A stretch of 42,444 bases of DNA, from IMG/VR virus record IMGVR_UViG_3300043470_000543, positions 1 to 42,444 of that record; one strand, given 5' to 3'. This DNA comes from a virus. The notes beneath the pieces are model-generated. The model was not told the origin of the DNA. It saw only the letters and a list, made by a program, of their open reading frames with translations, and searched no databases. The position numbers and the translations under genes are program-made. Below are positions 3,132-41,772 of this stretch, piece by piece (position 1 is the first letter of the stretch; each line of letters begins with the position of its first letter).

Positions 3132-4238
3132 CTAAAATAAATGTGTTATTCTCATTATTTGCCCGTGTTCTTTGTGGTGTACAAATGCCTCAACTGCTTT
3201 CGGAGCGTGTTCGTAACCATTCCTATGATGCCAACTATCTGTACCGCTCGGACTTCTTAAACTCTCGACACAAACGCTCATATAATCTTTGCTTATTTTG
3301 TGGTGGAAATGATGTATGTAAAAATACTTGTGTTTGCAATTAACCCAATCTTTACTTTCGTTAGCCATTAGCAAAGGTAAGTCTTGTTGTTTTGCACCGT
3401 CCCCGTGTGTAGTTCCGATAAGGTTATTAAAGTAAGTGAAATATTTACGATGTGAAATTCCACAGTCAAAAGTTACGTTTTTACAGTTTCTGAAATGCGT
3501 TTCAATAACTTGCGCTAAAAAGAAGCCGTTAGTGTAGTCGTGGTTGCTTGGGTTAAATACCACTTCAACGTCAGCAACGCACATTAGTTTTTCGATAATA
3601 TCAACGTATAACTGTTTAGCTATTATAAAATTACTGTGCCACATTCCGTCCGTGTCTTGAGGCGTTCCGCTTGTGGTTGTTCTTCTCGGATTGTCGATAT
3701 GTAAAACATCGTTGCCAATAACAAAAAGTATCTTATCGATATTCAAACTACTTACTTTGTCAAGTATTCCACTAACACCGTTCAAAACTCTATTAACCGC
3801 TATTTGGTTGTTATAGCTTTCGCCAACTTCAAAAGCACTACACAATTTACCTATGTGTATGTCTGCTGGGTCAATAACTAACAAATGAGCGTCTTTTTGC
3901 TTTTCCCTAACGTAAGTGTTGTATTTCGGAGAATAGTCTTTTAAATCGGCTAAAATTACTTGGTGTAATTCCTCAATAGATTTTTGTTCGGGTGTTTTAA
4001 ATAGCGGGTTGGTAACTCTTACGCTTTCGTTCTTTGTTTTTAACCAAAGCATCGGTGAGTTTTCAGGTTTCACTCCAACGTTTTGGCACGCTTCTATAAT
4101 TCCCAAATTTTGTAGTGATTTCAGTTCTTTAAACTGTTGCTCTTTTTGACTGTTTAGTCTATACCTTTTTTTAGCATTTAATTCTAAACCCAATAAATTA
4201 GCTAAGTCGTCGCTAATATAAAATCTTTTATTCCCCAT
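3132..4238 (-). CDS. Metallophosphoesterase (calcineurin-like)
   Basis: 368 residues. The dinuclear-metal motifs appear in order: DPADIHIGK (Asp126, His128), IGND (near 175-177), PSNHD (near 231-234), THGDG and the His cluster YIHHFHH. These match calcineurin-like phosphoesterases, a fold covering nucleases and protein phosphatases, so the substrate (DNA, nucleotide or phosphoprotein) cannot be chosen. Residues 1-110 are a separate helical region without a known signature. It has its own promoter (4261-4291) after a terminator. The right arm has a metallophosphoesterase of a different subfamily at the same locus, suggesting that the activity is selected. The stop is TAG. Confidence 0.85.
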   Translation of the reverse strand: MGNKRFYISDDLANLLGLELNAKKRYRLNSQKEQQFKELKSLQNLGIIEACQNVGVKPENSPMLWLKTKNESVRVTNPLFKTPEQKSIEELHQVILADLKDYSPKYNTYVREKQKDAHLLVIDPADIHIGKLCSAFEVGESYNNQIAVNRVLNGVSGILDKVSSLNIDKILFVIGNDVLHIDNPRRTTTSGTPQDTDGMWHSNFIIAKQLYVDIIEKLMCVADVEVVFNPSNHDYTNGFFLAQVIETHFRNCKNVTFDCGISHRKYFTYFNNLIGTTHGDGAKQQDLPLLMANESKDWVNCKHKYFYIHHFHHKISKDYMSVCVESLRSPSGTDSWHHRNGYEHAPKAVEAFVHHKEHGQIMRITHLF

Positions 4239-4260
4239 AAAGTTAAAGTTTTGGTTTACA

Positions 4261-4291
4261 CAAATTTAGTAAAGTATTTGATATAAACAAC
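4261..4291 (-). promoter_or_regulatory. Promoter of the metallophosphoesterase gene
   Basis: Minus strand GTTG (4288-4291), 19 bp, TAAATTTG (4261-4268). It fits the Bacteroidota TTG/TTTG-N19-TAnnTTTG form and leaves a leader of about 20 nt before the ATG at 4238. The element is conserved at 41555-41585, in front of an unrelated metallophosphoesterase gene. Confidence 0.7.
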
Positions 4292-4316
4292 AAAAGCCCC
4301 TAAAAAATTAGAGGCT
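4292..4316 (-). terminator. Rho-independent terminator
   Basis: Minus strand stem AGCCTCTAA/TTAGGGGCT with a short T loop, followed by TTTTGTTG. The U-tract merges into the -33 element of the next promoter, so termination and re-initiation are packed together. Conserved at 41586-41610. Confidence 0.7.
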
Positions 4317-4353
4317 GTTATCGATTAACCAAACTAAAACTAATTATGAAGCT

Positions 4354-4386
4354 CAAATATAATACTTTATTTTTAATTATAGCAAA
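4354..4386 (-). promoter_or_regulatory. Candidate promoter immediately upstream of a terminator
   Basis: Minus strand TTTG (4383-4386), 21 bp, TATATTTG (4354-4361). Transcription from it would reach the terminator at 4292-4316 after about 55 nt with no open frame, so it could make a very short RNA or an attenuated leader. The box and the terminator are conserved in the right arm (TATATTTG at 41653-41660). Confidence 0.45.
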
Positions 4387-4499
4387 CTATTTTAAATATT
4401 TATTATTAGATATAGCGATGCTTTTATGCTACATTAACCAATTACCTTAAATAATCAAATTAATAAAGCATTTATAAAAGACCCTTAAACAATTATAAA

Positions 4500-4685
4500 G
4501 CTAATATCTACACTTCCGAGCTACGACCATTTCTTATTTATTCAGTCTTTCGACTTTGGCTTTTTCGTTCGGTAATTAAAATAACTCTTTCGAGAATGTA
4601 GCACCCGTTAACAAGCTAAGTTAGAGCGGGATTTTTTATTACCGTTAGATATAACTTTTTGCATTACTGCACCGCCTACTATTTA
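4500..4685 (-). ncRNA. Candidate structured RNA with three GNRA hairpins
   Basis: No gene fits here. Minus-strand helices found by eye: hairpin TGCA-GTAA-TGCA (4660-4671); P1 ATATCTA (4652-4646) with TAGATAT (4510-4504); inside it P2 CGGTAAT (4644-4638) with ATTACCG (4576-4570); inside P2 a CCCG/CGGG hairpin (4604-4630) and CTC-GAAA-GAG (4594-4585); then P3 GCCA (4560-4557) with TGGT (4529-4526), enclosing AGTC-GAAA-GACT (4555-4544). GCTAC (4602-4598) and GTAGC (4524-4520) could form a crossing helix. Three hairpins have GNRA loops on this strand. A promoter (4692-4721) points into it. I cannot assign it to a known RNA family. It is absent from the right arm. The CCCG hairpin has a T-run on the plus strand (4632-4637), so an antisense reading is not excluded. 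Confidence 0.5.
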
Positions 4686-4691
4686 ATCACT

Positions 4692-4721
4692 CAAATATAC
4701 GGTTCTTATTTTACAGTCAAG
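4692..4721 (-). promoter_or_regulatory. Candidate promoter for the structured RNA
   Basis: Minus strand CTTG (4718-4721), 18 bp, TATATTTG (4692-4699). It lies between the terminator at 4749-4794 and the folded region 4500-4685, with no open reading frame of useful length downstream until 4238. This supports a dedicated non-coding transcript. Confidence 0.5.
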
Positions 4722-4748
4722 AGGTAAAACTTTTTTGGATAAGTCTAT

Positions 4749-4858
4749 AAAAGAAAAATCCCTCAATCAAGTGCGTGGAGGACTTAATTAAGGGTTATCT
4801 TTTTCTATCAATCTTTACTTAGAAGCGGATAATCAAATCCGTTTCCACGCAGATTGAT
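4749..4858 (-). terminator. Lysis-operon terminator with possible loop pseudoknot
   Basis: Minus strand: a 13-bp stem CCCTTAATTAAGT/ACTTGATTGAGGG (4794-4782 with 4772-4760, two G-U pairs), loop CCTCCACGC, then ATTTTTCTTTT; a strong terminator after the M15 peptidase gene. Upstream are helix AATCAATCT/AGATTGAT (4858-4851 with 4814-4807) and an inner hairpin CGGAT/ATCCG (4826-4841). The segment GCGTGGA (4850-4844) is perfectly complementary to TCCACGC in the terminator loop (4779-4773), so a seven-pair pseudoknot is possible. The terminator itself is confident; the tertiary element is inference. Confidence 0.7.
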
Positions 4859-4913
4859 TAAGTCAAAGATAATTATTTATTTTCTATTTACAAAAAAAAA
4901 TTGCACTTTTTAA

Positions 4914-27563: not shown

Positions 27564-28049
27564 TTAAATGCGTTTATTTAGTTCTTTTAGAATAAAATCA
27601 CGCCTTTTTATTGCGTCATTAATATCAACAAAAGTACCAAATGATTTTTTAACTCCATTTATTCTCATTCTAACCAACCACTTTAAGTGATTTTTATAAA
27701 TATTAAAATGACCACTTGAGCTATTCTTGTCTTTATAAGAATTATATCTATTAGATATTATTTGTAAATTATCTAATCTATTATTTAATTTATTATTATC
27801 TATGTGGTCAACTACCCTTTCGAATTTACAAGGCTTATGATTTAAAAAAGCTATTGCCATAATTTGATGTATAGTAGTTGTTTTACCTTTTTTGTTTTTA
27901 TACAAATTAACAAATGGATAACCGCTTGTATTGATATGTTTTTTTAATTTTTTATTAGACTTTATACTAAAAACTTCTCCTAAATTACTTACTTTGTAAA
28001 TGCCTTCATAATCTTTTACGTCTTTCAAAATTTCTATTTCTGTATTCAT
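27564..28049 (-). CDS. HNH homing endonuclease (NUMOD4/HNH_3 type), copy 1
   Basis: 161 residues from the ATG at 28049. N-terminal NUMOD4-like motif (IEILKDVKDYEGIYKVSNLG), then the HNH core: HQIMAIAFLNH, VVDHIDNNKLNNRLDNLQII, and a C-terminal AP2-like part (KNHLKWLVRMRINGVKKSFG). It is a free-standing mobile endonuclease that nicks or cuts DNA to spread its own gene. Its 102-bp leader is shared almost perfectly with the second HNH gene (38908-39414), although the proteins differ greatly. Confidence 0.85.
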   Translation of the reverse strand: MNTEIEILKDVKDYEGIYKVSNLGEVFSIKSNKKLKKHINTSGYPFVNLYKNKKGKTTTIHQIMAIAFLNHKPCKFERVVDHIDNNKLNNRLDNLQIISNRYNSYKDKNSSSGHFNIYKNHLKWLVRMRINGVKKSFGTFVDINDAIKRRDFILKELNKRI

Positions 28050-28148
28050 AAAATTAAAAACCCGCAAATCAATAGGTGGACGTCTATATCATTGCGGGAA
28101 TTTATTTAATATTGCTAATTAGGCGTCCACTCCTATAACACAAATATA
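28047..28148 (-). promoter_or_regulatory. Conserved 102-bp HNH leader with pseudoknot and U-tract hairpin (copy 1)
   Basis: 101 of 102 bases equal 39412-39513. Minus strand order: TATATTTG box (28141-28148); ATAGGAGTGGACG (28136-28124); CCCGCAA (28098-28092); CGTCCACCTAT (28082-28072); TTGCGGG (28067-28061); TTTTTAATTTT and ATG. CCCGCAA/TTGCGGG plus the T run makes a terminator-like hairpin. ATAGG-AG-TGGACG pairs with CGTCCA-CCTAT in its loop, giving an H-type pseudoknot of 11 pairs with a 2-nt bulge. Probably regulates expression of the endonuclease. Confidence 0.65.
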
Positions 28149-38907: not shown

Positions 38908-39414
38908 TTAACGACAAACTACATTATTTTGTATAAATTCAACATATTTTAAATGCGCATCATATTCATTTTTAAAAGAACCCAAATATTTAGTTTTGCC
39001 TTTATAATGGAATTCACATTTCCATGTTTTTGTTTTCTTATTATAAGAAACACCAGTATATTTACTTGATGATTTTAAATGCTTTTTGTTGGTGTTTTCT
39101 CTTGTAGTTACTATTTCTAAATTATCAAGCCTATTATTTAATTTGTTAAAATCTTTATGATTTACAACTAATTCATAACCGCATGGTTTGTGGTTTAAAA
39201 AAGCCATTGCTACAAGTTTATGTATTTTAAAGCTTTTGGTTTTACCAAATTTGCACAATACAACACCTTTGTAACCGCATTTTGAAATGCTATATTTTAA
39301 TGTTTTTTCTTCACAACTTCTTCTATAACTTAAACTTTTAACCCTGCCTAAATTACTAACTTGGTAATTTTCATAATTAGGTACATCTTTCCAAATTTCT
39401 ATTTCTGTATTCAT
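38908..39414 (-). CDS. HNH homing endonuclease (NUMOD4/HNH_3 type), copy 2
   Basis: 168 residues from the ATG at 39414. NUMOD4 motif IEIWKDVPNYENYQVSNLGR, HNH core HKLVAMAFLNH and VVNHKDFNKLNNRLDNLEIV, then an AP2-like C-terminus (YNKKTKTWKCEFHYKGKTKY). The protein is well diverged from copy 1, yet the 102-bp leader is 101/102 identical. The left arm has no HNH gene at the matching place, so this is an insertion. Confidence 0.85.
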   Translation of the reverse strand: MNTEIEIWKDVPNYENYQVSNLGRVKSLSYRRSCEEKTLKYSISKCGYKGVVLCKFGKTKSFKIHKLVAMAFLNHKPCGYELVVNHKDFNKLNNRLDNLEIVTTRENTNKKHLKSSSKYTGVSYNKKTKTWKCEFHYKGKTKYLGSFKNEYDAHLKYVEFIQNNVVCR

Positions 39415-39513
39415 AAAATTAAAAACCCGCAAATCAATAGGTGGACGTCTATATCATTGCGGGAATTTATTTAATATTGTTAATTAGGCGTCCACTCCTA
39501 TAACACAAATATA
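39412..39513 (-). promoter_or_regulatory. Conserved 102-bp HNH leader with pseudoknot and U-tract hairpin (copy 2)
   Basis: Same elements as 28047-28148: TATATTTG (39506-39513), ATAGGAGTGGACG (39501-39489), CCCGCAA (39463-39457), CGTCCACCTAT (39447-39437), TTGCGGG (39432-39426), T run, ATG. The single difference lies in the linker between helices, so all pairings are kept. Confidence 0.65.
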
Positions 39514-41533: not shown

Positions 41534-41554
41534 AAGTTAAAGTTTTAGTTTACA

Positions 41555-41585
41555 CAAATTTAATAAAGTATTTGATATAAACAAC
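41555..41585 (-). promoter_or_regulatory. Metallophosphoesterase promoter (right-arm copy)
   Basis: Minus strand GTTG (41582-41585), 19 bp, TAAATTTG (41555-41562), as at 4261-4291. Confidence 0.7.
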
Positions 41586-41610
41586 AAAAGCCCCTAAAAA
41601 AATAGAGGCT
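41586..41610 (-). terminator. Rho-independent terminator (right-arm copy)
   Basis: Minus strand AGCCTCTA/TAGGGGCT hairpin with a T loop, followed by TTTTGTTG. A TATATTTG box (41653-41660) with GTTG 18 bp further upstream (41679-41682) precedes it, as in the left arm. Confidence 0.65.
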
Positions 41611-41697
41611 CTTATCGATTAACCAAACTAAAACTATGAAAACTATGAAAGTCAAATATAATACTTTATTTTTAAATACAACTTATGAAATATAATT

Positions 41698-41772
41698 ATT
41701 ATACCCTATGTGTTATAAAAAACGATTATTCTTAACATATTATACCCTATCGGTTAAAAAAATGCGATTATT
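41698..41772. repeat. Pair of about 33-bp direct repeats after the lysozyme gene
   Basis: 41698-41730 and 41739-41772 share ATTATACCCTAT, then GTTA, an A run, and CGATTATT. On the minus strand each contains ATAGGGTATAAT, which includes a TATAAT hexamer, and AATAATCG. This 250-bp gap (41534-41780) otherwise holds only the promoter and terminator. Could be a protein-binding site pair or a second type of promoter. Confidence 0.55.

Follow-up and report, generated by a model that had tools for sequence, protein, structure and literature searches.

Phages have few known structured noncoding RNAs, and the majority of these are without a function. The put RNAs of phage HK022 are cis-acting antiterminator leaders of about 65-70 nt, folded into two stem-loops. 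The GOLLD and ROOL RNAs of phages and prophages are much longer (~660 to over 800 nt), structured, non-protein-coding and without established function (PMC12286853). In flavobacteria, chromosomal small RNAs such as Rfp18 are independent short transcripts with strong structure (PMC9723704).

The locus described here, on the minus strand of a phage genome, would encode a cassette of two RNAs, RNA-1 and RNA-2. Like the put RNAs, RNA-2 would be a structured RNA heading an early transcript, as judged by the layout in L200, but it is larger and branched. With GOLLD and ROOL it shares the features listed above, differing from them in its length of ~280 nt, in having no tRNA genes nearby, in its place at the lysis/early junction and in being paired with a second, terminated RNA. 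The probable host group and the promoter type recall the Rfp18-type RNAs, which RNA-1 also resembles when compared by layout only; the latter are however chromosomal, whereas the cassette is in a phage. RNA-2 appears, by sequence comparison, to be a new family among structured noncoding phage RNAs, the unusual part being the paired, mobile two-RNA arrangement.

Genomic Setting of the Cassette

The sequence examined was the IMG/VR record IMGVR_UViG_3300043470_000543, whose whole length of 42,444 bases is here termed the window. All the genes read in it are on the minus strand and are typical of a tailed phage, including those for tape measure, head and portal proteins, terminase, NinG, SSB, Erf and two lysins; cultured Flavobacterium phages are among the relatives of the gene at 3132-4238. 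A first-pass annotation had reported a candidate structured RNA in a gene-free stretch at 4500-4685, and this interval is indeed contained in an inter-ORF gap of 675 nt (4239-4913), flanked on one side by the gene for a phrog_704 'DNA repair exonuclease' and on the other by that for an M15-type endolysin (Pfam PF13539). Between RNA-2 and the next gene, the window has an additional promoter, terminator and leader (4385-4239).

The annotation had also linked the RNA to the lysis cassette of a single variant. This is correct within the contig, where the cassette is preceded by the M15 endolysin and is absent from the variant at the right end (variant B, 41.5-42.4 kb), but not in general, as in the closely related record L165 it follows a GH24-type lysozyme (assigned by eye; the window's own copy of this lysozyme matches the phrog_7 endolysin) and in L198 and L200 an unrelated M15 endolysin, plus a 66-aa gene. 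Being found after three different lysis genes, the cassette is not bound to one lysin. Directly downstream, L200 carries an 82-aa gene and then NinG. The cassette is located after the lysis genes in every carrier and marks the boundary between these and the replication/recombination (early) genes; it is absent from the record L163.

Homologues in Two Phage Groups

L165, detected by an exact 21-mer scan, is ~97% identical to the window over a 375-nt block (4769-4395) and 100% identical over 4669-4570, most of the genes common to the two being 74-86% identical. A 17-mer scan led to the identification of a second lineage (lineage 2: L196, L198, L200 and the partial L199), which nhmmer confirmed, the full copies (L196, L198 and L200) having E-values of 1e-47 to 1e-49. 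The known copies, that of the window included, come from only two lineages, with five full sequences that are effectively of three types. The best proteins shared by the window and lineage 2 are an HNH endonuclease (53%), NinG (31-33%) and SSB (29%); the strongest DNA match between the lineages is the RNA cassette itself (74%, E 1e-52 to 1e-57). The carriers are two phage groups infecting Bacteroidota, barely related otherwise, and the cassette appears from these comparisons to have moved between unrelated phages. As the best-conserved DNA between such groups, kept at a fixed genome place, it probably has a strong selected role and perhaps a conserved host partner. HNH endonuclease genes were observed at 27564-28067 and 38908-39432; the first, together with the cassette, makes up the main DNA-level similarity to lineage 2.

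Relatives of the endolysin, blastn matches to their loci and relatives of the exonuclease carried no RNA-2, only the leader repeat at 4239-4406. No credible match to the cassette was found in INPHARED and PLSDB, and none to the RNA-2 DNA in 295 Bacteroidia genomes. Some candidates were discarded, namely three 18-mer matches in genome contigs, limited to the anchor and apparently in coding sequence, a weak 79-nt match of model R1 in 395 Bacteroidia genomes (about the number expected by chance) and a weakly matching viral record (L208), in which the match is inside a methyltransferase-like ORF.

Structure of RNA-2

All the helices and hairpins named in the first-pass annotation are present on the minus strand (Table 1): the two nested 7-bp helices (in P2 and P3), the 4-bp helix CCCG/CGGG of P4, the three GNRA hairpins (one with GTAA and two with GAAA) and both sequences of the crossing helix (GCTAC/GTAGC). 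The extent proposed there, on the other hand, is too short, taking in roughly two thirds of RNA-2 and none of RNA-1.

Table 1. Features of the two-RNA cassette (positions in the window; RNA features are predicted).
Feature	Position	Strand	Description
RNA-1 promoter-like site	4864-4893	-	TTG (4893-4891)-N19-TATCTTTG (4871-4864); inferred start ~4859
RNA-1	4749-4859	-	stem-loop H1, then intrinsic terminator; z -6.0
H1 (RNA-1)	4858-4851/4814-4807; 4845-4837/4830-4822	-	outer AUCAAUCU/AGAUUGAU; inner
RNA-1 intrinsic terminator	4794-4782/4772-4760	-	9-nt loop 4781-4773, tail ATTTTTCTTTT
RNA-1 loop-to-internal-loop pairing (pseudoknot)	4773-4850	-	GCGUGG 4850-4845 with CCACGC 4778-4773
RNA-2 promoter-like site	4692-4720	-	TTG (4720-4718)-N18-TATATTTG (4699-4692); inferred start ~4687
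RNA-2	4410-4687	-	~278 nt structured RNA; nhmmer homologues, L165 block identity, covariation
P1' (closing helix, uncertain)	4412-4682	-	AUAGU 4682-4678/GCUAU 4416-4412 and GC 4675-4674/GC 4421-4420; RNAalifold consensus
Hairpin UGCA-GUAA-UGCA	4660-4671	-	same in 6/6 sequences
P2	4497-4658	-	AAAGUU 4658-4653/AGCUUU 4502-4497; AUAUCUA 4652-4646/UAGAUAU 4510-4504; U bulge
P3	4570-4644	-	CGGUAAU 4644-4638/AUUACCG 4576-4570
P4 hairpin	4598-4630	-	CCCG 4630-4627/CGGG 4607-4604; UAAC 4623-4620/GUUA 4612-4609; then GGGUGCUAC
Hairpin CUC-GAAA-GAG	4585-4594	-	lineage 2: CC-GAAA-GG (loop kept, shorter stem)
P5a enclosing P5	4526-4560	-	P5a GCCA 4560-4557/UGGU 4529-4526; P5 AGUC-GAAA-GACU 4555-4544
Possible pseudoknot	4520-4602	-	GCUAC 4602-4598/GUAGC 4524-4520; both strands invariant
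P6, 3' hairpin	4426-4471	-	AUGCU...AGCAU, long upper stem

Three GNRA hairpins of at least 3 bp each were rarely matched in 1000 dinucleotide shuffles (P = 0.002), and a nested pair of 7-bp helices was matched less rarely (P = 0.048), both features having been chosen after being seen. The minimum free energy of the stretch was no better than that of shuffles (z +0.65), as was mostly the case for other windows of 160-230 nt (z +0.4 to +1.4) and for the full 281 nt (z -0.9). For this reason stability was not used in support of RNA-2; the fold is unproven by thermodynamic stability alone, and the comparative evidence is decisive.

A comparison of the helices between the lineages was made by hand, independently of any model-fitted alignment. 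P2, P3, P5, P5a and P6 keep their pairing in lineage 2 with different sequences: P2 becomes a continuous helix in a shifted register, with U-A replaced by A-U and A-U by G.U; P3 is CGGUUGUA/UACAACUG, with unchanged offsets (35 and 103) relative to the RNA start; P5a shows a G.U to G-C change; P5 occurs as AGUC/GACU, as AGC/GCU (L165) and as UUCC/GGAG (lineage 2), always around GAAA; and P6 is rebuilt from other sequence (AUGUUA/UAGCAU and UUAGGG/UCCUAA). Within the first lineage, P6 of L165 carries G.U to A-U and U.G to U-A changes, and its P5 has lost both partners of one base pair with the GAAA loop kept. The pairing-preserving changes, located in P3, P5, P5a, P6 and the outer part of P2, include G.U/G-C and G.U/A-U swaps, which mean nothing for DNA and thus point to selection at the RNA level. 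Taken by themselves, the substitutions within a lineage count for little (P 0.21), whereas two deletions striking both partners of one pair have a P of 0.002. In the alignment A8, 95% of the paired cells could pair, against 32-41% with the partners slid, and the covariation score of 0.138 was not reached in any of 500 shuffles; since this alignment (five rows in two clusters) was itself fitted to the structure, both the 95% and the 0.138 lean towards the fold. No variation is seen in P4, the GTAA hairpin or the pseudoknot, which hence carry no covariation information, the P4 core UCCCGCUCUAACUUAGCUUGUUAACGGGUGCUACAUUC (38 nt) being identical in six of the six sequences. No long ORF is shared among the homologues, and RNA-2 is apparently noncoding, as any long frame would be disrupted by the 2-nt change in P5 and the 4-nt insertion at P3.

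The proposed pseudoknot is plausible. Its strands are longer in L200 (UGCUAC/GUAGCA), and UGCUACAUU has an alternative partner in AAUGUAGCA (4435-4427). The conformer containing this alternative (conformer B, the minimum free energy structure of the window) is disfavoured, as L165 breaks one of its helices and keeps P6. P1' is compatible with the GTAA hairpin and has one pair broken in L196 and L198. An alternative 8-bp P1 (4676-4669/4421-4414) was rejected, since in lineage 2 it contains two mismatches and it cannot form together with the unvarying GTAA hairpin. Read on the plus strand, P4 becomes a terminator-like hairpin (4604-4640, CCCGTTAAC..GTTAGAGCGGGATTTTTT).

The search of Rfam 15 with the window and L200 found no family at the gathering threshold, the best sub-threshold match being at chance level. 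The GOLLD and ROOL covariance models, both in Rfam, matched neither sequence. ARAGORN found no tRNA or tmRNA in the window, no Rfam model of a group I intron or known self-cleaving ribozyme matched, and RNA-2 is not within a gene. The earlier statement that the RNA fits no nameable family was thus borne out, and none of the refuting checks that were run went against it or against its being a new structured RNA, the helices surviving sequence change among homologues. RNA-2 is almost certainly a real structured RNA.

RNA-1 and the Promoter-Like Sites

The layout of RNA-1 is repeated in L165 and, with different sequence, in lineage 2; at the top of the terminator stem a U-A pair is C-G in L165. 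Six bases of the terminator loop are complementary to six bases on the 5' side of H1, in three fully complementary versions: GCGUGG/CCACGC in the window (shuffle P 0.0006), GGGUGG/CCACCC in L165 (0.0016) and GGGUGC/GCACCC in L196, L198 and L200 (0.009). A promoter-like site of its own and an intrinsic terminator accompany RNA-1 in both lineages, the layout of an independent small RNA, and it would be a short transcript that stops at this terminator. It shares with phage attenuators and intrinsic terminators this kind of 3' end, differing from them in the upstream pairing of the terminator loop, with its three covarying versions, and in the promoter-like site just upstream.

The -7 box of flavobacterial sigma-A promoters is TAnnTTTG (PMC9723704). 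The RNA-1 box TATCTTTG, at -12 to -5, fits it and is kept in L165, and L196 has TTG-N18-TATATTTG at the matching place. For RNA-2, the minus-strand promoter that had been described as pointing into the stretch was found as TTG-N18-TATATTTG; its -7 box is partly conserved (TATATTTA in L165, TATATTGA in L200, TACGTTGA in L196 and L198) and off consensus in L165 and lineage 2. Four of the 14 minus-strand TTG-N17-21-TAnnTTTG sites of the 42 kb fall within the 675-nt gap, where no host-type promoter was found on the plus strand.

Proposed Function and Alternatives

We propose that RNA-2 (about 4687-4410) and RNA-1 (about 4859-4749) are the halves of one cassette. RNA-2 would be transcribed from a promoter of its own as the first part of the early transcript, fold into a compact, GNRA-docked structure and act as RNA, most likely by binding the host transcription or translation machinery, with the invariant P4 and GGGUGCUAC core as the putative contact site. 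It might work in cis, as a put-like leader of the early operon, or, after processing, as a free RNA. To this proposal as a whole, a two-RNA cassette with a real RNA-2 that acts as RNA on host machinery, we assign a probability of about 0.5. The layout of lineage 2 makes us lean towards the leader role: RNA-2 fits the 5' end of the early transcript in L200, and fits it less well in the window, which has the additional promoter, terminator and leader. Antitermination of the put kind gets no support, since no minus-strand terminator was found among the early genes of L196.

RNA-2 could possibly be instead a stand-alone ornate noncoding RNA, by analogy with GOLLD and ROOL, that is processed out and acts in trans or as an oligomer, its neighbours being irrelevant. 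This comes close behind the leader role owing to the window's additional promoter and terminator, which cut RNA-2 off from the next gene. The cassette is moreover an all-or-none unit (missing from variant B and L163), the three conserved GNRA loops suggest a compact tertiary fold, and the invariant core is long; yet RNA-2 is far smaller than its models, has no tRNAs close by and lacks a 3' terminator of its own, continuing in L200 straight into the 82-aa gene.

It is rather unlikely that RNA-2 is a switching leader, i.e. a riboswitch or attenuator of the downstream gene. In lineage 2 it is indeed followed at once by an ORF, and alternative pairings are available (UGCUACAUU with GUAGC or AAUGUAGCA; 5' and 3' partners for UAGAUAU), but the downstream genes are unlike between the lineages (phrog_704 exonuclease and 82-aa unknown gene), the 3' end has no conserved expression platform, and conformer B is weakened in L165, while P6 ties up a strand that would have to compete.

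A DNA element (replication origin, recombination or attachment site) with inverted repeats mimicking RNA helices would suit an intergenic, AT-rich and horizontally shared site between late and early genes, but is very improbable given the G.U-compatible and loop-preserving stem changes, which are RNA signatures, the absence of a GC-skew switch at the site and of an integrase among the proteins scanned (a subset of the ORFs), and the near-identical phages without the cassette. Equally hard to credit is selection for a short leader peptide (MQKVISNG..., ATG at 4664) starting at the invariant GTAGGCGGTGCAGTAATGCAAAA. Its ATG and eight codons do persist between lineages apart from two synonymous changes (AAA to AAG, GTT to GTA), but both changes fall in P2 with pairing kept, the peptides later diverge (18 aa and 10 aa) and conservation extends far past them. 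The short ORF in question (MQKVISNGNKKSRSNLAC, ~4664-4608, minus strand) stops in lineage 2 at MQKVISNGCK.

Returning to the two-RNA cassette acting on host machinery, its boldest version, a mobile protein-free cassette whose two RNAs cooperate at the late-to-early junction to seize the RNA polymerase or the ribosomes of the host, is unlikely; if true, it would be a noncoding counterpart, without described precedent, of the phage 'moron' gene. RNA-2, compact and with a fold supported by covariation, is a small and testable target for structural and functional studies.

Other Features of the Contig

A leader repeat is present at 4240-4406 and 41534-41702 (87% identical), ahead of the exonuclease-like and a metallo-phosphoesterase gene, respectively. 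It comprises a promoter (TTG..TATATTTG), a terminator (AGCCTCTAA-TTTT-TTAGGGGCT) and, close to the start codon, an inverted repeat (AGTTTTAGTTT/AAACYAAAACT); both copies are strongly structured (z -5.0 and -8.4), and the repeat is possibly an attenuator. The same regions recur in diverged form at the two contig ends (1-5909 and 38283-42444), as would result from two phage variants assembled into one record or from a circular genome with alternative lysis/early cassettes. Direct repeats ATAGGGTATAATA, possible operators or phage promoters, follow the GH24-type lysozyme gene at 41700-41770 and, in L165, at ~7600, and are conserved in L163 and L165.
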